A DNA stretch of 41,359 nucleotides from positions 1 through 41,359 of the IMG/VR virus record IMGVR_UViG_3300034096_001100; one strand, written 5' to 3'. The stretch comes from a virus. Shown here in pieces: positions 2,504 to 37,113 of this stretch (position 1 is the first letter of the stretch; each line of letters opens with the position of its first letter). The notes under the pieces are model-generated. The model searched no databases, was not told the origin of the DNA, and saw only the letters and a program-made list of their open reading frames with translations. Both the position numbers and the translations under genes were made by a program.

Positions 2504-2701
2504 ATGCTACCCCCACTGAATGCGAAGCCGAAGAAGCCTTCCAAGTACGCGCCCAAGAAGTGCCCTGAGTGCGGCGAGAAGCTGGACGAGGAGGGCGAGT
2601 GCGAGGAGTGCGGCTACGGTTGCGAGGAGTGCGAGGCCGAGAAGGAAGCCGCGAAGCAGATGGAGATCAAGTTGTCGATCTTGCTTCCCGGCGGAGACTA
2701 G
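2504..2701 (+). CDS. Small Cys-rich, acidic zinc-ribbon-like protein, 65 aa
   Basis: Starts at the ATG one base after the preceding stop. Residues 20-45 contain CPECGEKLDEEGECEECG followed by CEEC, that is three CxxC knuckles able to hold a zinc ion, flanked by a Lys/Pro-rich N-terminus and an acidic Glu-rich middle. This looks like a minimal zinc ribbon, with a likely protein- or nucleic-acid-binding role. One copy of the genome-wide CAGTGGGGGT word, antisense, lies at codons 3-6, where it encodes PPL. No specific function is assignable. Confidence 0.7.
   Translation: MLPPLNAKPKKPSKYAPKKCPECGEKLDEEGECEECGYGCEECEAEKEAAKQMEIKLSILLPGGD
2509..2518 (-). repeat. CAGTGGGGGT motif copy 1
   Basis: Exact 10-mer on the - strand, with T before it, inside the zinc-ribbon-like gene (encodes PPL). 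Confidence 0.85.
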
Positions 2702-2708
2702 TTACAAT
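2681..2708 (+). promoter_or_regulatory. Weak candidate sigma70-type promoter
   Basis: TTGCTT (2681-2686) and TACAAT (2703-2708) are separated by 16 bases, ahead of the 2755 gene. The -10 is a good match and the -35 is partial. It overlaps the end of the upstream gene and is followed by a 7-bp hairpin (GTTCCGC 2720-2726 with GCGGAAC 2732-2738). Confidence 0.25.
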
Positions 2709-2754
2709 CTGATCAACATGTTCCGCCTGTTGCGGAACCAACCAGGAGAGTGTC

Positions 2755-2871
2755 ATGAAGAACAAGATGATGATGAAGGCCGCAGCCAAGGGCAAGCCGT
2801 CCAAGGGCGCCGCCAAGAAGAACCCGTTCGCCGCCATGCGCGCCAAGGCGAAGCCCGCCCCCAAGAAGTGA
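2755..2871 (+). CDS. Tiny Lys/Ala-rich basic protein, 38 aa
   Basis: ATG 2755 follows a clear AGGAGAG ribosome-binding site (about 2743-2749). The 38-residue product is nearly all Lys, Ala, Met, Pro and Gly (starts MKNKMMMKAAAK, ends AKPAPKK), with no acidic residue. This composition resembles histone-tail or nucleoid-binding peptides, so a DNA-condensing or capsid-internal role is conceivable but unproven. It is too short to be found by length filters. The 53-bp gap before it is one of the few non-coding stretches here and holds a 7-bp stem-loop. Confidence 0.65.
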   Translation: MKNKMMMKAAAKGKPSKGAAKKNPFAAMRAKAKPAPKK

Positions 2872-2880
2872 GGGTGACCC

Positions 2881-4404: not shown

Positions 4405-4813
4405 GCCCAAGGAACAGATCGAGAACGGCGAGGACGTGATCCGTTCGATGTTCTCGATCGACGGGGCGGCTGCGGCCATCAGGCGATCGGGATTCGACAT
4501 CGAGGAGGAGTTCGCGATGTACATCGACATCGCCCGCAACTCGCTCGAGGACAACACGAGACTTGCCGCCCTGCAAAGATTGCATAGGCGTACACGAGAA
4601 ATTGCGGAAGTGAACGGCATGATCTCGACCGGATCGGTTAGAATGGTATCCCATGAAGAAGACGGAACCCTCATCGAGCAGACCCGCTCAGAATCCCGGC
4701 TCCTCTCCCAGGTCCGAGGATTCAACCTCCCCGGCAATTCGGGGATCGCGAAACGGGTCCTTCCACCCGCAGACCCTGGATCATCTGGAGCAGCGCCTGC
4801 AGCAGATGCGTAA
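4397..4813 (+). CDS. Hypothetical protein, possible small terminase subunit, 138 aa
   Basis: Start chosen at ATG 4397, preceded by GAGAGG; a longer in-frame start at 4364 lies inside the previous gene. The helical core (EEFAMYIDIARNSLEDNTRLAALQRLHRRTREIAEVNGMI, about residues 36-76, quoted only in part elsewhere) has the shape of small-terminase helices that bind pac DNA. The gene lies about 0.8 kb upstream of the large terminase, where such a gene is usual. This is a position-plus-pattern guess, not a recognised domain. The C-terminal 50 residues are Pro/Ala-rich and overlap the next frame by 161 nt. Confidence 0.6.
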   Translation: MSKPKEQIENGEDVIRSMFSIDGAAAAIRRSGFDIEEEFAMYIDIARNSLEDNTRLAALQRLHRRTREIAEVNGMISTGSVRMVSHEEDGTLIEQTRSESRLLSQVRGFNLPGNSGIAKRVLPPADPGSSGAAPAADA

Positions 4814-5301: not shown

Positions 5302-5632
5302 CGACCATTCGACCATCGACGAGGCCATCGAGACGATCAAGCGTCTCCGCCAGATGATCCGAAAGGTCTCGTACGTTCCCGCCATCAAGGAAGAGATCGA
5401 GAACATCAACCCGGCCGCGATGTTCATCGACGGCATGGACGACGCCATCATCGGCTACGCGATTCAGTGGGGGTCTCCCGCCCTGGTCGTGTACGACGCC
5501 GAGCGCATCATCGAGATCCTGTCGAAGGACATGGGCTACGAGGACGCCTCCGAGTTCTTCAGCTTCAACATCGAGTGCGCCTACGTCGGCCCCGGGACTC
5601 CGCTGATCCTGTACCGGCCGGAGCCCGAGTGA
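5243..5632 (+). CDS. Hypothetical acidic protein, 129 aa
   Basis: ATG 5243 follows an excellent AGGAGGG site; an in-frame ATG at 5222 is possible but less likely. The product is acidic (PSDDHSTIDEAIETIKRLRQ, then NINPAAMFIDGMDDAIIGYAIQWGSPALVVYDAERIIEIL). The 'INPAAMFIDGMDDAIIGYA' and 'YDAERIIEIL' blocks recur, as I remember, in small phage proteins described only as hypothetical. Its TGA overlaps the terminase start (TGATG). A CAGTGGGGGT word at 5465 encodes the QWGS of this protein. Confidence 0.75.
   Translation: MPVGDIEHRLEVMREYYPSDDHSTIDEAIETIKRLRQMIRKVSYVPAIKEEIENINPAAMFIDGMDDAIIGYAIQWGSPALVVYDAERIIEILSKDMGYEDASEFFSFNIECAYVGPGTPLILYRPEPE
5465..5474 (+). repeat. CAGTGGGGGT motif copy 2
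   Basis: Exact 10-mer in sequence GATTCAGTGGGGGTCTCC; encodes QWGS in the 129-residue gene. Confidence 0.85.
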
Positions 5633-7593
5633 TGGAGATCAAGCGGATCCAGAGCCGGGAGCAAGGCAACGACAACTACCCGCTACCGCCGGACTACGAC
5701 ACCCTCACCAAGGATGGTCAGCGTCTGGCTCGGGTCAACGCTTGCCGCCAGTGGCTTCTTCACGAGGACGATCTCGAGGTCCGTGGCAACAACCTCGTGG
5801 CTTCCGTGTGGTGGTTCGACCGCTACTACCTCTGGCCCGATGACGACGCCGACTTCAACCCGCTCTTCTACGACGACACGCCCCTGGAGACCCCGGACTT
5901 CCACTGGGTGCTGCTGCGGCAGTGGGCCTCGTACCGCTTGACGGCGGCCGTCGCTCCCCGTGGTTCCGCGAAATCCTACCTGAACTGCAAGGACATGCTG
6001 CTCCGCCTGATCACGCGGCCGGCCTACTCCTTCGTGTACGCGACCTCCACGCACCCGAACGCGCGCGAGGTCGGTGAGCGCATCAAGCGCCAGCTGATTC
6101 ACAACCAGCGGATCCACGACGACTTCTCACCCGAGTTCGATGGGCGCATCGTTCCACGCCGCGGCGAAGGCTCCTTCAGCACCGAGCACATGATCCTCAA
6201 CAACGGGTCCTGGCTCCGGCTCCTGAGTGCCTCGTCGAAGCAGCGTGGTGGCCGTCCCCGTCGCTACCGGCTGGACGACCCCGAGTACGATCCCAAGTCC
6301 TCGACTCCGATGTCGGTGCTCCGCGCCTACATGGACGAGCTCCTCTTCAAGATCGTGATCCCGATGGTCACGCGCCCTGACACCGGCGTGGACTGGGTCG
6401 GCACGTTCGTGTCGAAGCGCCACTACCTGTGGCATGCGATGCAGACCGAAGATACCCCCGAAGGCCTTCTTGCCAAGGACGCCCGCTTCAACCGCTGGGC
6501 CCGTCTCGTGATCCCCGCTGCGATCGAGGACGATGGCAAGCTGATGTCGTGCTGGCCGGACATGTGGCCCACCTCCCGGGAGGAGCGTCTCGAGAAAGCC
6601 AAGACCCGCCCCCGCTTCAAGGAGGCCCTGTCGCTGGAGGAGATCCGCGAGACCATCGGTAGCTCCAACTTCGCCTCCGAGTACATGGCGTCCCCCGGCG
6701 ACGGCACCGACTCGTTCTTCGGCGAACTCGACCAGCAGAAGCACGGCTGGTGGTACGAGGAGATCGACGACCATCTCGATCAGCCGCTGTCCTCCACTAC
6801 GCACATCTGCTGGTACGAGCGGAACGGCGAGAACCACGAGCTTCGGAGGATGCCGATCCAGGACTTCCTTAGGTCCTACTGCCGCACCTTCATGACCTCG
6901 GACACCTCGCACACGTCCGGCAGCGACTCCGACTTCAAGGTCGTGTGCCTGATGGCCGTCACCCCGCAGAACGACCTGTTCGTCCTCGACCTCTGGGCCC
7001 GCCAGGGCCAGGAGTCTGAGCTGGTCCGGGCCACCTTCGAGATGGCTGACCGCTGGCGCTGCCCCACTGTACACCCCGAGGCCATCCGCCAGGGCGTCTC
7101 GCTCTACAACGCGCTCCAGTCCATCGTCTCCACCCGCGCCAACGACATGGCCGGCGTGGCCCACCTGCCCAAGATCGTCAAGCTGAACCCCGGCATGGCG
7201 GAGAAGCAGGACAAGATCGCCGGCCTCCAGTTCCGGTTCGAGCACGGCAAGATCAAGTTGCCCCTTTGGCGCCGGTCCCAGCTGCCGTGGCGCCACCTCT
7301 TCGACCAGGTGGAGTCGTTCAACCCCGAGGCCCAGGACGGCGGCCTTGAGAAGGACGACTGCATCGACGCCGTCGCCATGTCCCAGTTCGTCCTGCGGGG
7401 CCGTCTGGCCAAGCCCCCAGGAGCCGCAGCCGACAAGAGCCTGTTCGAGCGCCTGCGGGACGGCGACTTCTTCGACAACGGCCGGCACATCGGCGAAGGC
7501 CTCAATATCGACAGCCTGACCGCCCAGCAGATCCACGAGATCTTGGATGCACGAACCCCACACCCAACAACCACAAAGACAAACAAGATCTGA
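5632..7593 (+). CDS. terL: Terminase large subunit
   Basis: 653 residues from ATG 5632. The N-terminal ATPase domain has a Walker A-like APRGSAKS (residues 108-115) and a candidate Walker B in the RLDD region (213-216) or the AYMDE region (232-236). The C-terminal nuclease domain shows the RNase H-like acidic pattern: D424 in FMTSDTS, an acidic residue near E483, and D579 in KDDCIDAVAMS. The enzyme would translocate DNA into the prohead and cut it, docking on the portal encoded 305 bp downstream. The longer open frame to 5467 reads through the upstream gene and was rejected. The short C-terminal tail (PHPTTTKTNKI) is Thr/Lys-rich. Confidence 0.93.
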   Translation: MEIKRIQSREQGNDNYPLPPDYDTLTKDGQRLARVNACRQWLLHEDDLEVRGNNLVASVWWFDRYYLWPDDDADFNPLFYDDTPLETPDFHWVLLRQWASYRLTAAVAPRGSAKSYLNCKDMLLRLITRPAYSFVYATSTHPNAREVGERIKRQLIHNQRIHDDFSPEFDGRIVPRRGEGSFSTEHMILNNGSWLRLLSASSKQRGGRPRRYRLDDPEYDPKSSTPMSVLRAYMDELLFKIVIPMVTRPDTGVDWVGTFVSKRHYLWHAMQTEDTPEGLLAKDARFNRWARLVIPAAIEDDGKLMSCWPDMWPTSREERLEKAKTRPRFKEALSLEEIRETIGSSNFASEYMASPGDGTDSFFGELDQQKHGWWYEEIDDHLDQPLSSTTHICWYERNGENHELRRMPIQDFLRSYCRTFMTSDTSHTSGSDSDFKVVCLMAVTPQNDLFVLDLWARQGQESELVRATFEMADRWRCPTVHPEAIRQGVSLYNALQSIVSTRANDMAGVAHLPKIVKLNPGMAEKQDKIAGLQFRFEHGKIKLPLWRRSQLPWRHLFDQVESFNPEAQDGGLEKDDCIDAVAMSQFVLRGRLAKPPGAAADKSLFERLRDGDFFDNGRHIGEGLNIDSLTAQQIHEILDARTPHPTTTKTNKI

Positions 7594-8050
7594 GAACACG
7601 GTCTCCCAGTCCCTGTTCGACGCGATGGCCCGCTGGTACTTCGGCGCTTCCGTCGAGAAGGAACCGCCGTTGGATCGCGGGGTGGGTCAGACCGTCACAA
7701 TCTCCGATTCTTGGTTAGGGATCCTCTGCCTCTCCTACTACGGCAACGGTCCCCGGCATCCCTCCGTCCAGGTCCGCCCACTCGATTCAGTGGGGGTGGA
7801 CACGCCGGCCCGTGATACCGTCGTGCAGTATGTTCCCGTCAAGGAATCCGTCCGCATGATCCCTGGTGGATATGCGGCCAAGAAGGCCCAGGTAAAACAT
7901 GTCAACCGACCCGATCAAGCTGACCAAAGACCCGATGATGCTGGCTCGGATCATCGACGAGCACTGCGAACGGGAGCAGAACCGCCTGTCGTACCGCCGG
8001 GCGACGTGGCTGGTGGCCCTGTACTACATGATGGGGGCCCGTCAGTTTGA
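7547..8050 (+). CDS. Possible gene between terminase and portal, up to 167 aa
   Basis: The stretch between terminase and portal (7594-7898) is open in frame 2, with the high-GC third positions typical of genes here. The best-looking part is MARWYFGASVEKEPPLDRG (ATG 7625) through VRMIPGGYAAKKAQVKHV. If translated to its stop it overlaps the portal gene by 152 nt, and the last 50 residues there read like an out-of-frame shadow. No ribosome-binding site is evident at ATG 7547 or 7625. It may be a real small gene with a run-over end, or a decayed one. It carries a CAGTGGGGGT copy at 7788. Confidence 0.4.
   Translation: MHEPHTQQPQRQTRSENTVSQSLFDAMARWYFGASVEKEPPLDRGVGQTVTISDSWLGILCLSYYGNGPRHPSVQVRPLDSVGVDTPARDTVVQYVPVKESVRMIPGGYAAKKAQVKHVNRPDQADQRPDDAGSDHRRALRTGAEPPVVPPGDVAGGPVLHDGGPSV
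7788..7797 (+). repeat. CAGTGGGGGT motif copy 3
   Basis: Exact 10-mer within CGATTCAGTGGGGGTGG, between the terminase and portal genes. Confidence 0.85.
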
Positions 8051-9902
8051 TGTCTTCGATCCGGTCAGCGGCACCGTCCGCTACTCGTACCTCGACGACG
8101 AGGAGAAGATGGAGTTCCAGTCCTCGGAGCTCCTGAGCGCGGTCGACAAGATCTCCGGCCGCCTGTCTTCGCTGGACTACAGGCCGCTGGTGCAGCGCGT
8201 CGGGTCCTCGCTGAGCTCGATCCGCCAGCGGTCGATCGCGCAGATCATGCTGGACCAGGTGGTCTCGGAGCACCAGCTCCAGCGCGTGGTCCCGCAGTTC
8301 AATCACATCTTCGCGCTCCTGGGCTCCTGCGGCATCACCGGCCACATGGTCAACCACCCCACGGTAGGCATGACCGCCGACCTTGAGGTCGTGCACCCGA
8401 TGGAGTTGTTCCCGTTCCCGAGCCTGACCCAGGACTACACGAAGCAGCGCGGCCTCCTGCGCCAGCGCATGGTCTCCATGGAGTACCTGAAGGACGTGTT
8501 CGGCCCGAAGGTGACCCGCAACAAGGACCGCCTGGAGTACTTCACGATCAAGCCGGGCGAGACCTTCGAGCAGCAGACCGCCAACGAGTACACCATGGGT
8601 TCCAACGTGGAGTACTCCGACAGCAAGGTCGTGGGCTCGGATCCGAAGTACGACGCGATCGAGGTCGTCAAGGTCCGCGAGCTCTGGCTCAAGGGACCCC
8701 GCGACACCGTGACCCGCTACGTCGTGACGAGCGGCGAGTACGTGATCCACGACGAGGACCTGGAGGGCCGGGAGGTCTACTGCCCGATTGGGTTCGCCAG
8801 GTTCATGGAGAACGGCACGTTCCACGGCGCCGGTGTCTTCGACCTGCTGTTCCCGCTGTGCCGCGAAGCCGAGAAGCTTCAGAAGCAGCTCTTCAAGAAC
8901 GTGCACGACATCGACCGTTACGGCGTCCTCGTGCTGCCGCACGGCTCGTTCAACGCGAACACGATGCTGCGCGACGTGGGCAAGGGGCTCCGGGTGTTCC
9001 CGTGGGAACCGGATCCGATCAGCGAGGGCTTCCGTCCCTTCAACATCACGCCGTTCAACTCCGGCGACGTGCCCGGCAAGATCAGCGCATTCGCGGTCCA
9101 GCAGATCGACCGCCTCAACCCGATCCGCGATCTGATCGCGGAGAAGGGCCGCGTCGACTCCGCCACGGGCCTGCAGTTCCTGGACGAGCAGGTGAACCGC
9201 GCCATGAACACCCCCACTGCCGGTGTGCAGCAGGCGTGGGGCGATTGCTACCGGGCGGTGCTGGCCGGCACGGTGCGCGAGGTTGTGTTCAGCCCGAAGA
9301 CGTTCACGGTGGACCAGCTGACCCTGGACCTCGCGGGCGTCGTGGTTGACCCCGAGACCATGGCCGTCAGCTTCGAGCAGAATCCGCTGCCGTCGCTCGG
9401 GCAGCTGTCGTTCAAGATCAAGGACATCAACCCCCGGAGCAAGGTGGCCCGCAAGCAGGAGGCCCTCCAGCTCCAGCAGCAGTTCCAGATCGACCCGGAC
9501 ACCTTCATGCTCTTTGCGCTGAAGGAGGGCCTGGACTTCGCGATGTGGACCGACGAGCACCAGTCGGCCTACGAGTCGGTTGTGCGGAACTGCCTGCTCC
9601 TGTACGGTGACGGCAAGAGCCCGGGGCAGGTGGTGCTGACGCCGCAGACCACGAAGCCCGAGATGCAGATCCGGGTGCTCAACTCCTTCATGGCGGGACC
9701 GACGATGGCGGTTGCATCGGCCGAGGTGCAGAACGCCTTCATCGAGTACCACAAGACGCTGATGAGCTTTATGGGCTTGGTACTTCCGAACGCCCTTCCC
9801 AATCCAGACGATATGGCTATGCTGGGGCGGCTGGATCAGCAGATGGCCCAGCTCCAGGGGATGCAGCAGCAGGCTCCTGGCCCACAGATGCAAGGGATGT
9901 AA
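7899..9902 (+). CDS. Portal (head-tail connector) protein
   Basis: 667 residues. Size, position directly after terminase and before scaffold and capsid genes, and sequence style all fit a podovirus-type portal. It has an N-terminal helical region, a wing and stem region with VVHPMELFPFPS and RELWLKGPRDTVTRYVV, a long segment AEKLQKQLFKNVHDIDRYGVL matching portal stem helices, and a Gln/Met-rich C-terminal tail (LQGMQQQAPGPQMQGM) like portal barrels. Twelve copies would form the DNA channel at one capsid vertex. The start is ATG 7899 with a weak AGG site. An antisense motif copy at 9210 encodes NTPTAG. Confidence 0.9.
   Translation: MSTDPIKLTKDPMMLARIIDEHCEREQNRLSYRRATWLVALYYMMGARQFDVFDPVSGTVRYSYLDDEEKMEFQSSELLSAVDKISGRLSSLDYRPLVQRVGSSLSSIRQRSIAQIMLDQVVSEHQLQRVVPQFNHIFALLGSCGITGHMVNHPTVGMTADLEVVHPMELFPFPSLTQDYTKQRGLLRQRMVSMEYLKDVFGPKVTRNKDRLEYFTIKPGETFEQQTANEYTMGSNVEYSDSKVVGSDPKYDAIEVVKVRELWLKGPRDTVTRYVVTSGEYVIHDEDLEGREVYCPIGFARFMENGTFHGAGVFDLLFPLCREAEKLQKQLFKNVHDIDRYGVLVLPHGSFNANTMLRDVGKGLRVFPWEPDPISEGFRPFNITPFNSGDVPGKISAFAVQQIDRLNPIRDLIAEKGRVDSATGLQFLDEQVNRAMNTPTAGVQQAWGDCYRAVLAGTVREVVFSPKTFTVDQLTLDLAGVVVDPETMAVSFEQNPLPSLGQLSFKIKDINPRSKVARKQEALQLQQQFQIDPDTFMLFALKEGLDFAMWTDEHQSAYESVVRNCLLLYGDGKSPGQVVLTPQTTKPEMQIRVLNSFMAGPTMAVASAEVQNAFIEYHKTLMSFMGLVLPNALPNPDDMAMLGRLDQQMAQLQGMQQQAPGPQMQGM
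9210..9219 (-). repeat. CAGTGGGGGT motif copy 4
   Basis: Exact 10-mer on the - strand in the portal gene (TPT codons). Confidence 0.8.
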
Positions 9903-10811
9903 ATGGACCCCACGACGAAGATCACGCTCGAAGACGGAACCGAGGTCACGCTGGCGGATCTCATGCAGAACCGGAAGGACCTGCAGGAGGCCGTCGAGAT
10001 CAACGACACCCTGCAGAAGGATCTGCAGGAGGTCGGCGTCTTGTTCCAGGCGGGCATCACCCAGGACCGCCGCGAGAACGCAATCCGCAACGTGCTCGAG
10101 AACCTGGGCTACGAAGACGAACAGATCGGCAAGTACCTGGAGGCCACCCGCCAGGCACCCACCCCGAAACCGGAACCGGAGGAAGTCGAGGAGATCGAGC
10201 TTCCCGACCTGCCGGACGAGAACGACGACATCGAAGATTCCAGTGGGGGTGAACAAGAGGACACCATGACCGCAGAACGTGAACAGATCCTTCGGCAGGA
10301 GCTCGAGGCCCAGCGGGCTGAGCTCCACAAGATGCGGGTGCGCGAGCTCCGCGAAAACCTGAACCGCCAACTGGATACCGCGTTGAAAAGCAATGCGGAC
10401 TTCCAGAGGCTTATCGAGAGCGCCCGCAGTACTCGGGGCGACGAAGGCGTGAAGCAGGCAGAGCAGACGCTTCGAGCACAACTCGAGCAGCGCGCTCTGG
10501 AGCGCATGCAGGCTCGTCGTGCCACTGCGGGAACCTTCGAGGACTCATGGATGTCCGAGGAGGTCGAGAAGGCAGTAGAGCCCGTCGTGGGCACATTCCG
10601 GTCGGTAATCGGCGACATCGACAAGCTCGGTCGGTCGTCGGAAACGGTCACTGGACTCGACGCGCAGGAGATTCTGCGCTCCAAGCCAATCCCCGCTCCA
10701 GAGTACAAGGCTGGGATGTCCTTGACCGACGTTGAGTCGGATGTCAAGGCATTCGCCTCGGACACCATCAAGCGGGCCTTGGCGTCGTCTCCCGGTGAAT
10801 CCGCAATCTGA
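9903..10811 (+). CDS. Capsid scaffold protein
   Basis: 302 residues, directly after portal and before the major capsid gene, as usual for scaffolds. It is strongly acidic in the middle (EPEEVEEIELPDLPDENDD, about 83-110) and then coiled-coil (LRQELEAQRAELHKMRVREL and following). The last 60 residues would be the capsid-binding tail. An in-frame ATG at 10266 follows a GAGG site and lies 16 bases after a CAGTGGGGGT copy at 10241. Initiation there would give a 181-residue scaffold core without the acidic N-terminus. No protease signature is visible. Confidence 0.82.
   Translation: MDPTTKITLEDGTEVTLADLMQNRKDLQEAVEINDTLQKDLQEVGVLFQAGITQDRRENAIRNVLENLGYEDEQIGKYLEATRQAPTPKPEPEEVEEIELPDLPDENDDIEDSSGGEQEDTMTAEREQILRQELEAQRAELHKMRVRELRENLNRQLDTALKSNADFQRLIESARSTRGDEGVKQAEQTLRAQLEQRALERMQARRATAGTFEDSWMSEEVEKAVEPVVGTFRSVIGDIDKLGRSSETVTGLDAQEILRSKPIPAPEYKAGMSLTDVESDVKAFASDTIKRALASSPGESAI
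10241..10250 (+). repeat. CAGTGGGGGT motif copy 5
   Basis: Exact 10-mer in the scaffold gene (SSGGE), 16 bases before an internal in-frame ATG. Confidence 0.85.
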
Positions 10812-15268: not shown

Positions 15269-15272
15269 CATC

Positions 15273-23815: not shown

Positions 23816-25458
23816 GTCGGATGCCGTCGAACACAGAGCAGTTCCTTGGCGGGCTCGCGGCCTCGCAGGGTTTCCTGCAGCAGGCTGGTGCGAACCAGCG
23901 GGCCAAGATGGACTACCAGCTGGCTCAGCAGCAGATGGGTCTCGAGCAGCAGAAGATGCTGCAGCAGGGCCAGCAGTTCGAGCGCGGCCTTCAGGCCGAG
24001 TCGGAGAACTACCGGAAGCTGAACGAGAGCCGGGAGCGCATGGCCCAGGCCGAGATGGCGCAGCAGGGTTCCCAGTTCGGGCAGCGCATGGAGTTCGACC
24101 GGGAGCAGGCGAACCTGGAGCGGCTGGTCGGACTGAAGATGCAGCAGCTCGAGATGGATATGCGCCGCAACGAAGCCGAGATCGCGGCGATGGTCGACAA
24201 CGATCCCCGTCTTGTGGAAGCCCGGCTCCGTCGCCGCCAGATGCGCGGCGATATGGTCAACCTGGAGCAGATGCTCGGTGCCAGCGAACAGGCCCAGCAG
24301 ATGGCCCGTGGCCTCAAGGACGACCGGGTGGCCGAAATCGACGCCCGGCTCAACGCATACAAGGAATCAGTGGGGGTGCGCCGATCGCAGGCCGAAGCCG
24401 CGATGAAGGCGGGACTCGACTACGCGGTGCTCAAGGATGCCCGTGAGGGCGGCTTCATCCCGGAGTTGGCCCGCGTGGCAGCCGACCAGTTCGGTCCAGG
24501 TGTCGCTGCGGGAGGGCCGGTCGGAGCAGGAGCAGCAGGAATCGCGGCCGTCCGGATCCTCGGTGACAACCTGGTGAAGTGGGCAACCGGCGTCGGAAGC
24601 CCCGAGCTGGCGGAGACCAAGGCCACCGCCTTCATGAAGAACGGTGGCGTGATGGCGGTTCAGGTTGCGAACAACGCGATCGAACTCAACGGGGATGCGT
24701 TCGGCCTTCAGCCTGGAAAGCGCGAGGAGGCGGCACGTGTCATGTCGGACATTGTGTCTAAGGGTGCGATCCTGGCAAGCCTGGATCCGCAGGCGCGGTC
24801 GTCAAACGGTGCAAGCCAGCAGCAGCTGAAGCAGGAGATCGCGCAGGGCGTGGCTCAGCTGCGGCAGGCGGGCATGGGCGACGAGCAGATCGCGGCGGTC
24901 TTCGACGGCCTCGAGTCGATGAGCGAGAACCGGGCGGGACTCCTGCAGCAGTACGCGGAGATGGATCCGCGGTCGGCAGAAGCGGGAATCCTGGAGGAGA
25001 GCCTTGCAGGTGTCGGCAGGATCCAGGATGCGATCGAAGGCGTCGTCGGCGATCAGCAGACCATGCGTCAGTTCGGCGGCAAGCTTGTCGATCACAGCAA
25101 GTACGACTGGGTTGGAGTCAGCCGCAATGCACGGTTGGCGTACGGCATGGGCCAGAGCGCCGAGCTGCAGCAGTTGATGGGCGACCTTGATTCGATGGGC
25201 ATGACCGACGAGGAGCTGAACCAGATCGGCCGGCTCTTGACGGAGAGCGATCCGAACCTGCAGTACCTGCGGCCCGAGGACTTCACCTCGATGATGCGCG
25301 GCATCAGTGGGCGCATGGGTTCGCTGTCGTTGGGCATCGAGGACATCGGGGAAGACATCGGTCAGATCCAGGGTCAGGCAGTTGCGCGTGGACGCCTGCA
25401 GGGCTTGAACGAAGCGGACCAGCGACTGGCTGATCTCATCGGCCGGGTGGGAGGCTAA
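23812..25458 (+). CDS. Helical internal/ejection-type virion protein, 548 aa
   Basis: ATGA overlap with the previous gene. The first 200 residues form a nearly continuous Gln/Glu/Arg-rich coiled coil (MDYQLAQQQMGLEQQKMLQQ and onward). A Gly/Ala-rich patch follows at about 219-258 (GPGVAAGGPVGAGAAGIAAV), able to insert into membrane, and then a helical C-terminal half. This resembles internal core proteins ejected with DNA. It forms a set with its neighbours of 392, 966 and 1144 residues. A motif copy at 24368 encodes ESVGV. Confidence 0.7.
   Translation: MSRMPSNTEQFLGGLAASQGFLQQAGANQRAKMDYQLAQQQMGLEQQKMLQQGQQFERGLQAESENYRKLNESRERMAQAEMAQQGSQFGQRMEFDREQANLERLVGLKMQQLEMDMRRNEAEIAAMVDNDPRLVEARLRRRQMRGDMVNLEQMLGASEQAQQMARGLKDDRVAEIDARLNAYKESVGVRRSQAEAAMKAGLDYAVLKDAREGGFIPELARVAADQFGPGVAAGGPVGAGAAGIAAVRILGDNLVKWATGVGSPELAETKATAFMKNGGVMAVQVANNAIELNGDAFGLQPGKREEAARVMSDIVSKGAILASLDPQARSSNGASQQQLKQEIAQGVAQLRQAGMGDEQIAAVFDGLESMSENRAGLLQQYAEMDPRSAEAGILEESLAGVGRIQDAIEGVVGDQQTMRQFGGKLVDHSKYDWVGVSRNARLAYGMGQSAELQQLMGDLDSMGMTDEELNQIGRLLTESDPNLQYLRPEDFTSMMRGISGRMGSLSLGIEDIGEDIGQIQGQAVARGRLQGLNEADQRLADLIGRVGG
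24368..24377 (+). repeat. CAGTGGGGGT motif copy 13
   Basis: Exact 10-mer within GAATCAGTGGGGGTGCG in the 548-residue gene (ESVGVRR). Confidence 0.85.
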
Positions 25459-28361: not shown

Positions 28362-28723
28362 TGGTTCAGATCGACGACGTGAAGCAGCTCTCGCACGAGA
28401 TCGTCGGGTCTCACAATGCCCGCGGGTTCTCCCTTGTCAAGATCACCCCCACTGATAGCGGGTCAGTGGGGGTGCTACTGAACGTGACGAAGACGCCGCT
28501 GGTGGTCAAGGGGCGGGAGCTGAAGGCGAAGGCGGATGTGCGGCGGTTCCTGTGGGACCAGAGCCGGACCACCCGGATGCGAAGGAAGGACCGGACGTTC
28601 GTGTGGACCCGGTACATGAAGGACGAGGACGTGAGTGTGGTGGGGCTGGCCACGGTGGTCAGTCGCGAGGTGGCTGAGCGGATGGCGCGGCTGGATTACC
28701 AGTGGATCGAGGTGCAGTCATGA
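28361..28723 (+). CDS. Small basic protein, 120 aa
   Basis: No family recognised. The ATG overlaps the upstream TAA. The protein begins acidic (MVQIDDVKQLSHEIVGSHNARGFSL) and becomes strongly basic in the middle (VRRFLWDQSRTTRMRRKDRTFVWTRYM), which would suit nucleic-acid or DNA-core binding. Its codons 29-38 hold both arms of a perfect 12-bp inverted repeat made from two CAGTGGGGGT copies (28444-28474), encoding ITPTDSGSVGV. The two halves of the palindrome are read in different registers, so the symmetry is not explained by protein needs. Confidence 0.7.
   Translation: MVQIDDVKQLSHEIVGSHNARGFSLVKITPTDSGSVGVLLNVTKTPLVVKGRELKAKADVRRFLWDQSRTTRMRRKDRTFVWTRYMKDEDVSVVGLATVVSREVAERMARLDYQWIEVQS
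28445..28454 (-). repeat. CAGTGGGGGT motif copy 14 (left arm of the inverted pair)
   Basis: Exact 10-mer on the - strand; head-to-head with copy 15. Confidence 0.9.
28464..28473 (+). repeat. CAGTGGGGGT motif copy 15 (right arm of the inverted pair)
   Basis: Exact 10-mer on the + strand, 9 bases from copy 14. Confidence 0.9.
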
Positions 28724-29214: not shown

Positions 29215-29222
29215 GGTGAACC

Positions 29223-29736: not shown

Positions 29737-32700
29737 ATGAGCCAGGTACCGATGAACCTACCGTTCGAGCAGCTGGCGAGTTACGACAAGCCGCAGCTCC
29801 TGTTGACGCAGGCGTTGGACAACGAGTTGACGGTGCGTGGTGCGCTGCAGACGCTGGTGGATGTGGATGGGTTGAGCCCGAACGAACGGGACCTGTTCAC
29901 CACCAGGCTGAAGGAGCGGGTCGGAAGGAACTCGGTCACTGATGCGGCCATCGATGTGCTCACGAATCCGTTCGTGCTGCTGATGGCGGTGACCAGTCCG
30001 GTGGCTGGCCAGGCGCTGAGCCGGACGGGCCGAGCGATCTTTGACATGAGCGAGCGGTTCAGTCCGTTCGTCAAGGAGCAGGGTGGGTTGCTCGGGTCGC
30101 TTGGGTTCCTGGCGCCGATGCAGCTGTTCCGGGGCACGGCGCTGACGCCGGCGGTCCAAGCGTTCACGAAGGGCGTGGACGAGATGGAGAAGGAGATGCT
30201 GGGCAGGGTGGGCCCGGCGCTTCAGAAGGTGCTGGAGAAGCACGGGCTTGAGTCGCTGAACCCGGAGAAGGTGCAGGGTGCGGCCCTGAAGAAGAAGGCG
30301 GAGGATCTCAACGATCTGTTGTGGGCGTCGTTGAGCGGTGCGGACAAGAAGACGAAGCAGGAGATGTGGCGGATCAGGACGTACGACAAGGCGGGCAATC
30401 CGTTCAAGGGCACGAAGAAGGAGCGGCTGGAGAACGGCGTGTTCCGGCTGGAGAAGGTGAAGACCAAGGAGCAGGGCGCACTGGTGTCGGCCGACATCGA
30501 GAAGATGCTGGCGCAGAACGGGCTCACGGATCTGCGGGATGCGTACCGGGGTGCCATGGATCAGCGGCGCATGAGGTTGTTCGGGAACGAGGCGGAGAGC
30601 GCAGCCAAGGGCGTGTTCGTGGCAGACGAGCAGAAGCTGCTGCGGATGTGGGACGGGCTGCGGATGGGGCTGAGCGGCAAGGGTGCGCTGAGTGGAACTG
30701 GTGCCGAGATGGCGGCCACGCTGATGGGCCCGGAGCTGGCGGCGCAGATCGCGTCCGGCCGGGTGCCGAAGGAGGATGTGCTCAAGGCACTTCGGCAGAT
30801 GGTCGAGGGTCAGGATGCGAGCTCGTACTTGCCGAGGAACCTGATCGACATGAAGGGGACCAGCGATGTGGCGCGGCTGATGGAGCAGCGCAGGAGCCGG
30901 GCGCTGGTGGCTACGGGCTCGAGCCTGAACAGAATCAGCTCGGCCGGCCGCTTCGATCCCGACGACCTGAAGCGGGTGTTCGGCAAGTACGGCGCAACCG
31001 ATGAAGGGCTCAAGGTCCTGAAGGGTGCGGAGCGGAAAGTGCAGACCCTGATTGCGAAGGGCGAGACGGCGCGGGTCTACAAGATCAACGCGCAGGAGTC
31101 GCTGGCCCGGCACTTCCGGGACACGGGCGTGACGCACTCGATGTTCGTGCGGACCACCGACCAGATGCCGAGGCTGAGCCAGGCGGTCCAGGATTCGATG
31201 CGGCTGGCGAACCCCGAGAAGCTGAAGCAGCTCGACGAATCGTTCAAGCGGACCTCGCTGATGACGGGCGGCCAGTCGCTGGCCGAGCTGTTTCACCGGC
31301 AGCACTTCCTGCTGGAGGACGATGCCGCGAAGGAAGCGCTCGAAGTGATGTTGCGCGGAGCAGTGGGGGTGCAGAAGGTCGAGCATGTGGCCACGCACAT
31401 GGCGCTGATCCGGGGCAAGCAGGGGTTGAGGGCGGTGCTGGATTCACCGGTTGGTGCGGCGATGAAGGGCGCCGGCAAGTGGGGCCAGGGCATGTACGAC
31501 CGGCTCGACGAGATGGCGAACGCCAAGCTCACGTTCGGCGAGGCCAAGGGCATGAGCGGCCAGCTGGCGAAGTACTTCTATGTGACGCACCTCGGCCTGA
31601 ACCTGAGCAGCGTGACGATGAACCTGATGCAGCCGCTCCTGTATGCGAGCGTGTACGGCGGACTCGGCAACGTGATGAAGGCGTACGGCTCGGCGTTCAA
31701 GGAGATGGGCGAGTACGTCACGGAGCGCGTCGGGAAGTACGGGGTGCGGGCGCTGAGCGAGGATGAGCAGCAGGGCCTGATCCGGAAGCACTTCAAGTTC
31801 TCCAACATGGAGGGCGAGAACCTGGTGCAGATCGGACGGGACACGTTCTCGACGCTCGACACGATCTCGTTCCAGAGTGACAAGCTGGGTAGGGTGGGAA
31901 GGCGAGAGAGCTACTTCTTCGATTACCCGATGAAGATGTTTGAGAAGGCCGAGTGGATGAACCGCAACGTGGCGGCCCATGCGGTCGAGAACATCTACCG
32001 GGGTGCGAAGATCGATGTGAAGCCCGGGTCGGCCGGGTACTACCGGATGATCGGGGATGTGGACGAGATGGTGAGCGCAACGCAGTTCGGCGGCAACACG
32101 CTGAACACGCCGCTGGCGTTCCAGGGGGCAGGCCCGTTCGGTCGGTTGGCAAACAACCCGCTGTTCCGCCAGTTCCTCAGCTTCCCGCTGCGGTCGGTCA
32201 CGACGCTGGCGTACGACAGCCCGAGGCTCGGTGGCCGCGGTGTCTTCAAGGGAATCGGGCAGGACTTCCTGCGGGGCATGGGCATCAGTGCGGTCTTCTA
32301 CGAGATGGGGAAGAACACCTTCGGCGTGGACCTGAGCCCCGGTTTGTTCGGGGCCAGCTTGACGCAGGCGGTCGGAGGCGACCGGTTCTTCCAGGACGGG
32401 AACGAGTACGTGCCGATCCCGCCGGTGGTGGACATCCCGATGAACCTGATCCGGGGTGCGCTGGATCCTGGGCAGCGGGACCTGATCCAGAACAACCTGC
32501 CGAGGTTGGTGCCGGGTGGGATTGCGGCGGCCCGGGTGATGGGCATGATGCCGAACCTGATGGAGGGTCCGCTGTTCGGGCTGCCGGGCTCCCTGCAGAA
32601 GACCTACGTGGACTTCAAGACGAAGACAGAGGATGGGCGGGTGCCGGTGTACAAGGCGGACGGAACCCTGATCGATTACCAGGGCACGGGCCAGATCTTC

Positions 32701-33171
32701 GCGAAGGCGCTGGGTGTCGACTTCGGTACGTTCAAGCAGACGGCGGACTTCGATGCGTTCCTGCTGAAGAACCGGGACCAGATCGTGGAGTACCGGCGGC
32801 GGGCGATTGCGGCGCTGCTGGCGAACGAGATCCCGAAGATGCAGGGGGTCAAGCAGGAGTTCAAGCGGCGGTTCGGGATCGAGCTGACCATCAGCAAGGA
32901 CCAGCTGGACGAGGCGATGAAGAACCGGCTGGTGCCCAGGACGGAGCGCATCCTTGAGCGGATCCCCCCGGAGCTCCGAGGTCAGTTCCAGCAGCTGGCG
33001 GCCAGCAGGGCACCGGAGCTGGGTGTGTCGGCGGAGGCCATCATGGGGGCGGACACGGCCCGCCAGAGGATGCAGTCTCGTCAGATCGGGACGCTGCCGC
33101 TGACGGCAGAGCAGCAGGCTGTGATGGCACAGGAGACGGGGAAACCGTTCGAGAGCTTCGGCTCGTTCTAG
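29737..33171 (+). CDS. Giant internal/ejection virion protein candidate, 1144 aa
   Basis: The last rightward gene, isolated behind a terminator, so it needs its own promoter or readthrough; none is clear. ATG 29737 has only a weak GAG site. The protein is helical with a hydrophobic patch at about 77-98 (NPFVLLMAVTSPVAGQAL), a Gly-rich LLGSLGFLAPMQLF patch at about 118-131, and an AKYFYVTHLGLNLSSVTMNLMQPLLYASVY region in its centre. Membrane-active segments in a very large protein fit a gp16-like ejected core protein. No lysozyme-like active site was seen. A motif copy at 31361 encodes AVGVQK. Its TAG overlaps the stop of the opposing gene by 4 nt. Confidence 0.7.
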   Translation: MSQVPMNLPFEQLASYDKPQLLLTQALDNELTVRGALQTLVDVDGLSPNERDLFTTRLKERVGRNSVTDAAIDVLTNPFVLLMAVTSPVAGQALSRTGRAIFDMSERFSPFVKEQGGLLGSLGFLAPMQLFRGTALTPAVQAFTKGVDEMEKEMLGRVGPALQKVLEKHGLESLNPEKVQGAALKKKAEDLNDLLWASLSGADKKTKQEMWRIRTYDKAGNPFKGTKKERLENGVFRLEKVKTKEQGALVSADIEKMLAQNGLTDLRDAYRGAMDQRRMRLFGNEAESAAKGVFVADEQKLLRMWDGLRMGLSGKGALSGTGAEMAATLMGPELAAQIASGRVPKEDVLKALRQMVEGQDASSYLPRNLIDMKGTSDVARLMEQRRSRALVATGSSLNRISSAGRFDPDDLKRVFGKYGATDEGLKVLKGAERKVQTLIAKGETARVYKINAQESLARHFRDTGVTHSMFVRTTDQMPRLSQAVQDSMRLANPEKLKQLDESFKRTSLMTGGQSLAELFHRQHFLLEDDAAKEALEVMLRGAVGVQKVEHVATHMALIRGKQGLRAVLDSPVGAAMKGAGKWGQGMYDRLDEMANAKLTFGEAKGMSGQLAKYFYVTHLGLNLSSVTMNLMQPLLYASVYGGLGNVMKAYGSAFKEMGEYVTERVGKYGVRALSEDEQQGLIRKHFKFSNMEGENLVQIGRDTFSTLDTISFQSDKLGRVGRRESYFFDYPMKMFEKAEWMNRNVAAHAVENIYRGAKIDVKPGSAGYYRMIGDVDEMVSATQFGGNTLNTPLAFQGAGPFGRLANNPLFRQFLSFPLRSVTTLAYDSPRLGGRGVFKGIGQDFLRGMGISAVFYEMGKNTFGVDLSPGLFGASLTQAVGGDRFFQDGNEYVPIPPVVDIPMNLIRGALDPGQRDLIQNNLPRLVPGGIAAARVMGMMPNLMEGPLFGLPGSLQKTYVDFKTKTEDGRVPVYKADGTLIDYQGTGQIFAKALGVDFGTFKQTADFDAFLLKNRDQIVEYRRRAIAALLANEIPKMQGVKQEFKRRFGIELTISKDQLDEAMKNRLVPRTERILERIPPELRGQFQQLAASRAPELGVSAEAIMGADTARQRMQSRQIGTLPLTAEQQAVMAQETGKPFESFGSF
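31361..31370 (+). repeat. CAGTGGGGGT motif copy 16
   Basis: Exact 10-mer within GGAGCAGTGGGGGTGCAG in the 1144-residue gene (AVGVQK). Confidence 0.8.
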
Positions 33172-33795: not shown

Positions 33796-33827
33796 GAGGG
33801 GGTGGAGCTTGTAGGCCCCACCCCCTC
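33796..33827 (-). terminator. Strong stem-loop downstream of the 33846-34409 gene, no U tract
   Basis: GAGGGGGTGGAGC (33796-33808) pairs with GCCCCACCCCCTC (33815-33827) around TTGTAG, a 13-bp stem with one mismatch on the + strand that becomes a G-T wobble on the - strand. Neither side has a T run. The CACCCCC of its right arm can instead pair with GGGGGTG of the adjacent motif copy (33831-33840), giving an alternative hairpin. Confidence 0.5.
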
Positions 33828-33830
33828 GAT

Positions 33831-33840
33831 CAGTGGGGGT
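33831..33840 (+). repeat. CAGTGGGGGT motif copy 17, the only clearly intergenic copy
   Basis: Exact 10-mer within GATCAGTGGGGGTGCG, 3 bases beyond the 33796-33827 stem-loop and 5 bases past the stop of the candidate SSB gene. Confidence 0.9.
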
Positions 33841-33845
33841 GCGTG

Positions 33846-34409
33846 TTAGGCGGACAGGAGCTTCTGCAGGAACTCGGTCTTGTAGACCTTGGTCGCGGCG
33901 TTGCCCTTGCCCTTGCGGTACTGGCACCGGACGGTGCACACCACCTGCTTGTCCGAGCCGAGGAGGTTGGAGACCTTCTCGATCGCGTCGGCCACGTCGA
34001 GACCATCAGCCGTTCCCACCTTGGTTCCAAGGACGGTGCTGAGATGGCCGCAGAAGCGGTTGCGCTCGATCTGCAGGCCGGTGCGACGGCCCTCTGCGGT
34101 GACGGCGCCGGCGTTGTCCGGGAAGGTGAACGGTGCGCCGCCCCAGACGAGCGGGTTGTCCGGGTTGACCTGGTCGTTCAGGAGCTGGTAGCGGAAGCGG
34201 AACTCGGTGGCCGAGAGCTCGACCTGCTGACCCTGATCGGTGGTGAACCGGTAGGTGGCCTTCTCGTTGATCTCGAGACCGAGCACGTAGCAGTCGTGCT
34301 CACCCTCGGTGGGCCACTCGCCGAGACCGCCGACGCCGGTGTCCGGATTGGCGTCACCGAAGGCCTGCTTCTGGGCTGCGAACATTGCGCTGATCTTGCT
34401 GTTTGCCAT
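33846..34409 (-). CDS. Candidate single-stranded-DNA-binding protein, 187 aa
   Basis: ATG 34409 with an AGGAG site. The globular part (EWPTEGEHDCYVLGLEINEKATYRF, then VELSATEFRFRYQLLND) has the alternating strands of an OB-like fold, and the C-terminal QVVCTVRCQYRKGKGNAATKVYKTEFLQ is basic. It sits directly downstream of the RecA-like ATPase, where many phages place an ssDNA-binding partner. No recognised SSB signature or acidic C-terminal tail is present, so the name is positional inference. Confidence 0.5.
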   Translation of the reverse strand: MANSKISAMFAAQKQAFGDANPDTGVGGLGEWPTEGEHDCYVLGLEINEKATYRFTTDQGQQVELSATEFRFRYQLLNDQVNPDNPLVWGGAPFTFPDNAGAVTAEGRRTGLQIERNRFCGHLSTVLGTKVGTADGLDVADAIEKVSNLLGSDKQVVCTVRCQYRKGKGNAATKVYKTEFLQKLLSA

Positions 34410-34441
34410 GACTCTGACACTCCTGAAAGGGTTGACTGGGG

Positions 34442-35338
34442 TTACGCCCCAGCATTGGTGTTGTACTTGCGAACGAACTCGGCCCAGCCGTACGACTCGG
34501 GCAACTCGAACTCTGCCTCCATCTTGACCCGGTGCTTCGTGATCCCCGAGAGGGTCTCGGAGTCGACGGAGAACAGGTGGCGCTTGCGCTTCTCGGTCAC
34601 CACCTTGGGCTTGAGCTGAACGGTCTTGCCGTCCTTGACGATGGCGGGCTGCTGGATCTCACGCTGCTCGGTGACCCACTCCGAGGACACGGCAGCGACC
34701 AACTCGAACAGCGGGTAGAGCCGCTTGTAGAAGCCGTCGGTGATCGTGAGCTCGGGCTTGAAGACGTACCGGTCGTCGCCCAGGGGGATCTTGGCGTTGA
34801 CCACGTGACACACAATGTACACGCCGTAACCGTACCGGCGCAAGGTGAGGCACGAATCGATCACCATGTCGTAGAGCTGGTCCCACGAGCGGCGGCCGTC
34901 CATCTCGCGCCAGTCCTTCTTGTCGTTGGACCGGGTGATCCAGTCCTTGAGGACGGGGATCCACGTGCCGAGCGAGTCGAAGAACACGGTGGCCGGCCGG
35001 GGCTGGTTGTTCTTGGCGAGGTTGCAGAGCAGGTCGATCTTCGTCTGGATGGCTTCCCACGTGAGGACGAGGGGCTCTCCATTCACGTCGATCGGCTGAC
35101 CCTGCGGGTTGATGCCCGGCCACACGCATGCCTGGGGATCCCCGAGCGTGGACGTGCAGTCCATGTTGCACACCCATGCGTCCGGGTGGCTCTGGATGAA
35201 CTGCGACTTGCCCTCGCCGGGCAGCCCACAGATCAGGCCGAAGAGCTTCTCCGGCGGATGGACCATCTTGATGCCTTGGAATCCAAGGCCCGAGTACCGC
35301 TGCTGCGGTAGCTTTCCTGCTGCTGTCGTGACTGACAT
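34442..35338 (-). CDS. RecA-fold (Sak4-like) recombination ATPase, 298 aa
   Basis: Walker A GLPGEGKS (residues 38-45, K44) and Walker B ATVFFDSLG (116-124, D121) are clear, and a central WREMDGRRSWDQLYDMV helix follows. The size and arrangement match phage Sak4-type single-strand annealing or recombination ATPases, which are RecA-core proteins that work with an SSB partner. The flanking nuclease, helix-turn-helix and candidate SSB genes support a recombination or replication-fork role. GAGGAG site before ATG 35338. An alternative is a related AAA family ATPase of phage replication modules. Confidence 0.75.
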   Translation of the reverse strand: MSVTTAAGKLPQQRYSGLGFQGIKMVHPPEKLFGLICGLPGEGKSQFIQSHPDAWVCNMDCTSTLGDPQACVWPGINPQGQPIDVNGEPLVLTWEAIQTKIDLLCNLAKNNQPRPATVFFDSLGTWIPVLKDWITRSNDKKDWREMDGRRSWDQLYDMVIDSCLTLRRYGYGVYIVCHVVNAKIPLGDDRYVFKPELTITDGFYKRLYPLFELVAAVSSEWVTEQREIQQPAIVKDGKTVQLKPKVVTEKRKRHLFSVDSETLSGITKHRVKMEAEFELPESYGWAEFVRKYNTNAGA

Positions 35339-35341
35339 GGC

Positions 35342-35689
35342 TTACTCCTCGAAGCCCGGCATGCGTACGTTGCTAAAGACAGACGTAGGTGCCGGGAAGT
35401 TGAATGACTGCTGGCGGTGCACGGTCTCGAACGTGTCGTACTCGCTGCGCTGCGCGGGCACAGGCGCGGGCGCGGGCGGGCGCTTCATGTTCGGCCGGTC
35501 GATCTGCACGGTGCGGGTCACCCGGTAGCCGATGGCCTTGAGCCACTCGGTGATGCGGGACTTCGACACCTTGCACTCGAACACCTTGTTGAACTTGGCG
35601 GTGAGATCCCCGATGGACTCGACGCCGTCCTCCAGGACCAAGTCGATCTTCGGCTTGATCACGAGGCGGACGTACTCGTCCTCGAACAT
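35342..35689 (-). CDS. Helix-turn-helix DNA-binding protein, 115 aa
   Basis: Start chosen at ATG 35689, which shares its A with the TGA of the nuclease gene; the longer frame is a shadow of that gene. Residues about 20-48 (ESIGDLTAKFNKVFECKVSKSRITEWLKAIGYRV) form a helix-turn-helix-like unit with 'SKSRITEWLKAIG' as recognition helix. The C-terminal half is Pro-rich and probably disordered (MKRPPAPAPVPAQR). It may be a transcription regulator or a DNA-binding partner of the nuclease-ATPase pair. Confidence 0.65.
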   Translation of the reverse strand: MFEDEYVRLVIKPKIDLVLEDGVESIGDLTAKFNKVFECKVSKSRITEWLKAIGYRVTRTVQIDRPNMKRPPAPAPVPAQRSEYDTFETVHRQQSFNFPAPTSVFSNVRMPGFEE

Positions 35690-37113
35690 CACGTGAGGTG
35701 TTCGGGTTCGAGGCTCTCGATCATCCCGTCGAACTCGTGCGGTTCCGGTTCGCTTGGCAGTTCGCCCGCGTCCCGATGGGCGACGAGGAACTGCTGCGTC
35801 TGGACCAGCGCCGGCCAGTCCTTCGGCTCGGTCAGGTAGAACGGGCTGTAGTTCGCCAGCTTCGACCCCATCCGGATTGCGTCGATGTTCTTCAGGAAGT
35901 TGCATGGGTTCGCCTCTTGGGTTGCCAGGTTGTAGATCATGGCAACACGGGAAAGGTAGTCGATGCGCCAATCCTTGTCAAGCATCACCGACGAATGAGT
36001 GTACGAAATATTGATCGGGGGGTCGTTCACGAAATCCGGAGCCTTGTCAAGGTATTCAAGTTCACCCCGGTACCAGCGCATGCACCTGGCCATGTAGTTC
36101 GTGAGCGACGGTTCGCCCTGGTAGATCTTCTCAGGCTTCTTGCCGGTGACCTGGTGCAGCACGTTGAGGCACTCTTCCATCGTGCCGCAGCACGGCTCCG
36201 GGCTGGGCTGGTTCTTGGTCCACTTGATCACGTACTCGCCGAACTCCTGCAGGTGGACGGGGGACCGCATGATGCGGCCGGAGACGCCGGTGCGCTTGCC
36301 GTCGGACTCCCAGTGGAAGTCGCGGTCGGACTGCCCGAACTGGATCGACGGCTTGAGGATAGCCATGTGCATCATGCCGCCGAGCTGCACGTCCTGTGCC
36401 AGGTTGTACTGCTTGTGAAGCAGGCCCCGGGCAAAGAACCACTCGAGGGCGTGGAGGTAATGCATGGTCTGGAACTCCTCCTTCACCGTCGACAACCGGA
36501 TCAGTGGGGGTGACGCGGTCGTCTTCGCGTCCACGATCCAGAGCTTGTTGGTCTTGCGGTTGAGCAGGAGCAGGTCGAACTGCGCGACCTGGCGGGTCTT
36601 CGGGAACCGCTCGTCGATCCACGTGAGCCGGACCTCGGCGCCGAGCTTGACGAAGTTGTCGGAGAGGGTGTCGAGCGCGCTCTGGTTGTTGATGCAGGGC
36701 AGGTTCTCGAAGGCGTTGTACCAGGCGGAGGCGTAGGCCTGGTCGATCTGCTCGTTCTGGATCGCGTCGGCCCGGTGGGATTCGGCGATCCGCAGCTCCT
36801 TGCAGATGTTGTTGATCTCGGCAAGGCGGGCAGAGCACTGGCGCTTGAAGATCTGCCAGCGATCATCGCGGTCGTAGAGGGCGAACAGGGTGTGGAAGTA
36901 GGAGCCCCGCGACAGGGCCTCGGAGTAGGAGAGCGCGGGGATCAGGCCGAGCCGGCGGCGGATGTAGTAGCCGAAGGGATCGGAGAGGGCGGAGCTGTAG
37001 TCGGATGAGCGGATGGAGGGAATCCGGGGCACGAGGCCTTCGGACTCGAGGTACTGCCGGGCGCTTCTGGCACGGTCAGTCGGGAGGGGGAGCGGTGTCG
37101 TTTCGGGTGGCAT
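35689..37113 (-). CDS. PD-(D/E)XK (RecB/Cas4-like) nuclease, 474 aa
   Basis: The nuclease core is visible: H74 in GSYFHTLFALYD, E160 in GAEVRL, D180 in VAQFDLLLL and the D195-x-K197 of LWIVDAKTT. This is the order H, E, D and D-x-K typical of RecB-family nucleases. No iron-sulfur cysteine cluster of the Cas4 type is evident. It would process DNA ends for the adjacent recombination ATPase. The start ATG 37113 has an AGGA site and overlaps the sigma-like gene by 38 nt. A CAGTGGGGGT copy (36502, antisense) lies at ASPPLIRL just after the active site. Confidence 0.8.
   Translation of the reverse strand: MPPETTPLPLPTDRARSARQYLESEGLVPRIPSIRSSDYSSALSDPFGYYIRRRLGLIPALSYSEALSRGSYFHTLFALYDRDDRWQIFKRQCSARLAEINNICKELRIAESHRADAIQNEQIDQAYASAWYNAFENLPCINNQSALDTLSDNFVKLGAEVRLTWIDERFPKTRQVAQFDLLLLNRKTNKLWIVDAKTTASPPLIRLSTVKEEFQTMHYLHALEWFFARGLLHKQYNLAQDVQLGGMMHMAILKPSIQFGQSDRDFHWESDGKRTGVSGRIMRSPVHLQEFGEYVIKWTKNQPSPEPCCGTMEECLNVLHQVTGKKPEKIYQGEPSLTNYMARCMRWYRGELEYLDKAPDFVNDPPINISYTHSSVMLDKDWRIDYLSRVAMIYNLATQEANPCNFLKNIDAIRMGSKLANYSPFYLTEPKDWPALVQTQQFLVAHRDAGELPSEPEPHEFDGMIESLEPEHLT
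36502..36511 (+). repeat. CAGTGGGGGT motif copy 18
   Basis: Exact 10-mer within GGATCAGTGGGGGTGACG, antisense to the leftward nuclease gene. Confidence 0.85.

Follow-up and report, generated by a model that had tools for sequence, protein, structure and literature searches.

A strict, dispersed 10-bp word with branch-specific dialects, possibly a Chi-like signal, in a family of uncultured tailed phages

We analysed a 41,359-nt stretch of viral DNA (IMG/VR record IMGVR_UViG_3300034096_001100; hereafter the window), in which the 10-bp word CAGTGGGGGT occurs in 18 exact copies, more than any other 10-mer. The comparisons described here show that this word is real, strict over 9-10 bases, and selected at the DNA level within genes. 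By analogy with bacterial signals, we tentatively read it, at just short of an even chance, as the local dialect of a Chi-like site in uncultured tailed phages of ~50-56 kb, which would be specific to this family and more likely read by a phage protein. The window is a fragment, because it matches bases 4323-45681 of a 54,059-bp record (G010) with 99.92% identity.

An earlier note on this DNA had listed the 18 copies and put the number expected by chance at ~0.2. Recounting returned every coordinate and strand, as well as the tendency toward a T before and a G after the word, and the recomputed expectation was ~0.1 copies. Dinucleotide shuffles of the window gave an expectation of 0.16 and a maximum of 2, and Markov models of orders 1-4 gave 0.06-0.14, so that low-order models fail to account for the count. 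The expectation was 1.1 at order 5 and 6.0 at order 6. Higher-order models (6-7) were rejected as an explanation, because the 7-mer and 8-mer counts are themselves set by a 10-mer present 18 times in 41 kb, which makes the expectation circular. Two additional 9-mers, CAGTGGGGG, without the T after them, are located at 37977 (-) and 41281 (-).

A terminase scan recovered 30 related loci (73-100% protein identity), nearly all of which had CAGTGGGGGT as their most over-represented 10-mer. Three relatives with terminase identities of ~74-84% (L010, L011, and L027) carry CAGTGGGGGG instead, which is a shift at position 10. Pooled over the relatives, 313 exact copies of CAGTGGGGGT were found, compared to 0-3 copies of any variant that departs from it at a single one of positions 1-9. 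Of the 9-mers, 76% continue with T at position 10, and RAY is preferred upstream. Such sharpness is unlike that of a usual repressor site. At aligned site positions, relatives that lack the word mostly differ from it by at least 3 bases. Where the word is present, it is kept by synonymous codons even though the flanking DNA has diverged to ~65-75% identity. Codons for the same amino acid were identical within sites in 207 of 260 cases, compared to 104 expected from matched codon types outside the sites. Similarly, in a relative of ~49% GC (G006), 19 of 22 site codons were identical, compared to just 28-39% of same-amino-acid codons outside. Free synonymous drift, which the earlier note had named as a finding that would count against its proposal, is refuted by this excess. 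The same excess bears out the note's exclusion of protein constraint and supports a dispersed site recognised by a protein over protein constraint or composition. An artefact of composition, codon usage, or repeats would accord with a G-rich word lying on a G-rich strand; the expectation of ~0.1 under orders 1-4, the synonymous codons kept in sites, and the nearly exclusive dialects of phages with similar GC (see below) refute this reading, to which we assign a negligible probability.

The layout of the sites is not intergenic, because 15 of the 18 lie within gene models of the + strand and the site at 36502 lies within a - strand gene; those at 2509 and 33831 are outside the models. In window coordinates, with the strand of the word, the sites are:

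2509-2518 (-): 7 nt past a stop codon and not covered by a gene model; exact in L003, with 1-2 mismatches in L008 and L009
5465-5474 (+): in the open reading frame (ORF) that precedes the terminase gene, where it encodes QWG; 7 of 10 relatives keep it exactly, with flanks of 73-82% identity
7788-7797 (+): near the 5' side of a putative portal gene, possible ORF 7547-8050; exact in L008 and L028, missing from most other relatives (at least 3 mismatches or an indel)
9210-9219 (-): in 7899-9902, TPT; carriers have ACC CCC ACT and non-carriers, for example, ACG CCG ACC, which gives the same peptide through synonymous changes only
10241-10250 (+): in 9903-10811, SGG; the best conserved site, exact in 14 of 17 relatives with flanks of 67-85% identity, the remainder differing solely at or after position 10
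14683-14692 (-): in 14431-15276, a poorly conserved gene
15101-15110 (+): in 14431-15276
15517-15526 (+): in 15210-16322
16595-16604 (-): in 16319-17086; exact in L028, one mismatch in L008
19774-19783 (+): in 18948-22637
21869-21878 (+): in 18948-22637, ISGG; exact in 4 of 8 relatives
23061-23070 (+): in 22634-23815; exact in L032 and L033
24368-24377 (+): in 23812-25458
28445-28454 (-): in 28361-28723, left arm of an inverted pair; exact in 9 of 12 relatives
28464-28473 (+): right arm of the inverted pair, after a 9-bp spacer; exact in 10 of 12 relatives
31361-31370 (+): in 29737-33171; exact in 4 of 11 relatives
33831-33840 (+): between two - strand genes; exact in 9 of 9 relatives, one with an insertion after it
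36502-36511 (+): within the exonuclease gene, antisense; exact in 5 of 7 relatives, the other two differing solely at position 10

A link of the 5465 site to the terminase start codon was considered and rejected; the true start is at ~5632, and the site is within the preceding gene. An alternative genetic code in L015 was likewise rejected, as the stop codons in question sit upstream of the true start.

The description of the copies as single and asymmetric holds for most of them and fails for 28445(-)/28464(+), which form the inverted pair. This pair was also noted in L031, L033, L035, and L046, and another conserved pair, whose sites converge and lie 33 bp apart, occurs in L043 (5526-5567) and in L040. 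A strict double-stranded site that is used on both strands and genome-wide, together with the conserved inverted pair, would suit a phage protein of the ParB, TerS, or nucleoid type that condenses, segregates, packages, or marks DNA. Binding sites of this kind are usually palindromic or clustered, in contrast to the mostly single, asymmetric, and dispersed sites here, and the proteins offer no strong candidate for a DNA-binding domain, the sole helix-turn-helix match being weak. We consider this explanation improbable.

Scans with exonuclease and polymerase alignments retrieved more than 100 further loci from distant relatives. One contig was retrieved through the inverted pair; its exonuclease, Sak4-like protein, and conserved 187-amino-acid protein (the corresponding window genes are listed below) were just 32-35% identical, and its top word was AGTGGGGGGA. 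Top words in the distant relatives were GTGGGGGGA, GAGTGGGGG, TAGTGGGGA, AGCGGGGAA, and TGGTGGGG, and the dialect words share a core of GTGGGG or GCGGGG. In its strict form, the TGGTGGGG dialect (dialect G) is G-N-T-GGTGGGG, that is, GNTGGTGGGG, which includes both the E. coli Chi word GCTGGTGG and the H. influenzae Chi word GNTGGTGG, and the dialect E word AGCGGGGAA includes the B. subtilis motif AGCGG; all three are on the list of known Chi motifs (PMC8022716). The dialects are nearly exclusive, with 4-12 copies per 10 kb in the phages that use them and mostly ~0-1.4 in others, also between phages of similar GC, and their labels track the exonuclease tree, with 9 changes compared to 30.8 when shuffled. 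Five records of 49-56 kb, each representing a different dialect, have 18-47 sites apiece and a common architecture, in which terminase and portal are on one strand and primase, uracil-DNA glycosylase (UDG), family A DNA polymerase (PolA), ERCC4 nuclease, exonuclease, Sak4, and the 187-amino-acid protein on the other. Across six long records, the sites are at least 7-fold above the expectation of order-3/4 Markov models. Within a dialect, sites occupy fixed codon columns, filled in 14 of 14 exonuclease genes of dialect A (by the site at 36502), 8 of 8 exonuclease genes of dialect C, 12 of 12 Sak4 genes of dialect B2, and 13 of 13 PolA genes of dialect G; between dialects, the site columns mostly do not coincide.

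Several loci showed other features of this kind. The top words of the distant relatives L363 and L373, GGATGGGAC and GGCTTGGGC, are possible extra dialects without the GTGGGG core, and a second over-represented word, GCTGCGGTG, was seen in L331 and L360 (8-9 copies, ~0.3 expected) and also in L257 and L273. One locus of the GTGGGGGGA dialect, L308 (IMGVR_UViG_2775506758_000002), has an identifier that is not of the metagenome form; it may be a single-cell or isolate assembly and could reveal a host.

The + strand bias of the window sites (13:5) that the earlier note had pointed out is real, but it does not stand as evidence of polarity, because the base composition of the strand predicts it: in the six records, the terminase-sense strand carries 133 of 203 sites (133:70), compared to 133.7 expected from strand dinucleotide composition. 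The bias was therefore rejected as a sign of a polar enzyme. The terminase-sense preference holds regardless of gene strand, and in the arm of - strand genes the sites are mostly antisense. Read on the + strand, third codon positions of - strand genes show a G-C skew of +0.34, compared to +0.02 for those of + strand genes (window and L043). Site density is ~0.5 per kb in the family (0.4-0.9 per kb across the long records; ~435 per Mb in the phage), and the spacing is somewhat more regular than chance would give (combined P = 3e-4), most clearly in dialects A and D and not in B2.

These properties bear on two further explanations. Dispersed initiation sites for the phage primase-helicase, which would prime the lagging strand at Okazaki-fragment distance, fit the conservation of this protein in the full-length dialect phages, the slight regularity of the ~2-kb spacing, and the asymmetry of the G-rich strand, which is independent of transcription and suggests one fixed leading strand. 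Lagging-strand priming should use one strand, whereas both are used at the ratio expected from composition; moreover, primases generally read ~3 bases, and a need for 10 would be exceptional. We therefore regard priming as distinctly unlikely. The stoperators of L5-type repressors and the localised nick sites of T5 and phiKMV, both named in the earlier note, share with the word a dispersed and asymmetric arrangement in phage genomes. L5 stoperators lie chiefly in short intergenic regions, oriented with transcription, and the sites of this family do not. Position mostly within genes, orientation independent of transcription (mostly antisense in the - arm), extreme strictness with degenerate copies almost absent, and the lack of a recognisable repressor or integrase in the set of proteins scanned speak against stoperators, and the use of both strands, in the window and over the six records, speaks against one-strand nicking. 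Both readings are disfavoured, and we judge them very improbable. The remaining listed readings together, that is, these and the artefact, retain only a sliver of probability, beside a small reserve for something unlisted.

The bacterial genomes sampled gave no indication of a host word. In ~650 genomes (398 Pseudomonadota, 119 Actinomycetota, 61 Bacteroidota, 59 Cyanobacteriota, and 14 others), CAGTGGGGGT was not enriched; the maximum was 23 copies per genome, with no phage-like excess over a reversed control pattern. At least 97 unrelated viral stretches contain one extended copy, and among the matches listed none had more than two 9-mers. These null results, from a limited sample, favour a word of the phage family. 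The inverted-pair pattern was also tried as a lead to the host and rejected; it matched 84 loci, of which those inspected resemble terminator hairpins, and led to no genome with many copies. The word could be the host's own Chi, read by RecBCD, AddAB, or AdnAB, with phage branches that have adapted to it and dialects that reflect Chi variants of different hosts. This explanation draws on the presence of GCTGGTGG, GNTGGTGG, and AGCGG in dialects G and E (PMC8022716), on the retention of host Chi by phages without RecBCD inhibitors (PMC3784561), and on the point that the true hosts may fall outside the sample. It is opposed by the absence of an enriched genome, by the lack of a dialect shared at density with unrelated viral contigs among the matches listed, by the requirement for 9-10 exact bases, and by a density of 0.4-0.9 per kb, which is higher than that of lambdoid Chi (0.2 per kb). 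On balance, we consider it unlikely.

Structural genes are on the + strand of the window, and replication and recombination genes are on the - strand. The genes relevant here are:

5632-7593 (+): terminase large subunit (phrog_38; alignment A1; true start ~5632)
33846-34409 (-): conserved 187-amino-acid protein after Sak4, called SSB-like (single-stranded DNA-binding) from gene order alone; no Pfam match
34442-35338 (-): Sak4-like (RecA/RadB-related) annealing protein (phrog_124, PF13479)
35689-37113 (-): RecB/AddB-type PD-(D/E)XK exonuclease of 474 amino acids (PF12705, phrog_1218)
37076-37612 (-): 178-amino-acid protein with a weak helix-turn-helix match (PF13384, E = 0.007)
38827-39726 (-): protein with an Mtd_N domain (major tropism determinant, N-terminal)

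Further recognised proteins are an ERCC4 nuclease, a family A DNA polymerase, a uracil-DNA glycosylase, and a primase-helicase. In the putative Sak4 module, Sak4 and the exonuclease were assigned by profile, and the gene order is conserved. A scan for tRNAs returned none. Terminase, portal, Sak4, and exonuclease had no relative in 50,697 phage records, and the terminase had none among 84,980 bacterial and archaeal species. An AlphaFold2 model of the exonuclease (predicted local distance difference test score, 88.7) had AddB of AddAB and then AdnA as its nearest PDB folds (E 1.6e-5 to 2e-4). This link to AddB is one of fold alone, because a profile search of PDB sequences gave no match; going by the predicted structure, the resemblance is a fold kinship of RecB-type nuclease domains and not one of Chi reading.

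Among the parallels named in the earlier note, a Chi-like site is the one that the evidence favours, given the dialects that include GNTGGTGGGG and the cassette of exonuclease, Sak4, and SSB-like protein. Like the Chi words of E. coli (GCTGGTGG), H. influenzae (GNTGGTGG), B. subtilis (AGCGG), and S. aureus (GAAGCGG), the word is short, asymmetric, G-rich, over-represented, strict, and dispersed in genes; its dialects include canonical Chi, and the phages have their own exonuclease-Sak4 module. As a Chi-like signal, the word on phage DNA would be read by a processive DNA-end-processing enzyme, which would switch there from degradation to recombination or protection, as RecBCD and AddAB do at Chi. 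Phage ends and concatemers would thereby be spared, or loaded with phage Sak4 and its partner. Recognition is more likely through a phage protein (exonuclease, Sak4, or partner) than through a host enzyme alone, because the dialect appears confined to the family and is not enriched in the sampled bacteria or in the unrelated viral matches listed. A bolder version, which we hold to be doubtful, is that the phages encode their own Chi system, in which an AddB-fold exonuclease, Sak4, and a partner would read a word marking 'self' DNA, and word and reader would have diversified together to give six or more dialects, of which one converged on bacterial Chi. Phages gain or lose Chi in line with their own recombination functions (PMC3784561), and a Sak4 gene followed by a conserved protein resembles the Sak4-SSB module of HK620 (PMC5928155).

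A number of points weigh against a Chi-like signal. CAGTGGGGGT matches no known Chi word; known Chi words have 5-8 bp, compared to the 9-10 bp here. E. coli Chi is strongly polarised, and no polarity beyond base composition is present in the six records; non-polarised Chi candidates have been noted in Vibrio (PMC8022716). Unlike bacterial Chi, moreover, the word belongs to a phage family and is not enriched in the sampled bacteria. The AddB match is confined to the nuclease domain, PD-(D/E)XK folds are widespread, and the 474-amino-acid exonuclease, unlike AddB, has no helicase-like Chi-reading domain; a crude Walker-A scan of G010 yielded no other convincing helicase candidate besides Sak4. 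Sak4 has no known dependence on a sequence word. The motif accompanies the entire cassette, including the primase, and so points to no particular reader protein. Gene trees do not point to one either: those of Sak4 and primase join both GTGGGGGGA branches, those of exonuclease, PolA, and UDG weakly do not, and parsimony does not require this grouping. The null result in ~650 genomes comes from a limited sample with many bacterial phyla outside it. Finally, we infer a Chi function (recombination, binding, or nuclease attenuation) by analogy.

In selecting for a recombination word, these phages resemble lambdoid phages (PMC3784561), which, however, use the Chi of their host at ~0.2 per kb and ~3-fold enrichment, compared to 0.4-0.9 per kb, at least 7-fold enrichment, and several dialects here. 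Another parallel is found in the DNA uptake sequences of Neisseriaceae, which are strict, dispersed words with lineage-specific dialects (PMC3630211); unlike the phage word, they are chromosomal words of naturally transformable bacteria, present in hundreds of copies per genome, and none of the ~650 genomes was enriched for CAGTGGGGGT.

Known Chi words are few and, for the most part, single short motifs from one bacterial group apiece. The phage family studied here carries several words in the same gene context, and its sites are fixed within branches and replaced between them. Such a family would offer a natural series for the co-evolution of a DNA-end-processing machine and its signal, for the genome-wide swap of a dispersed signal, and for self-marking by phages. 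The word also offers a sequence test for hosts, in which a host would have a matching Chi, and a means of binning metagenomic phage fragments.

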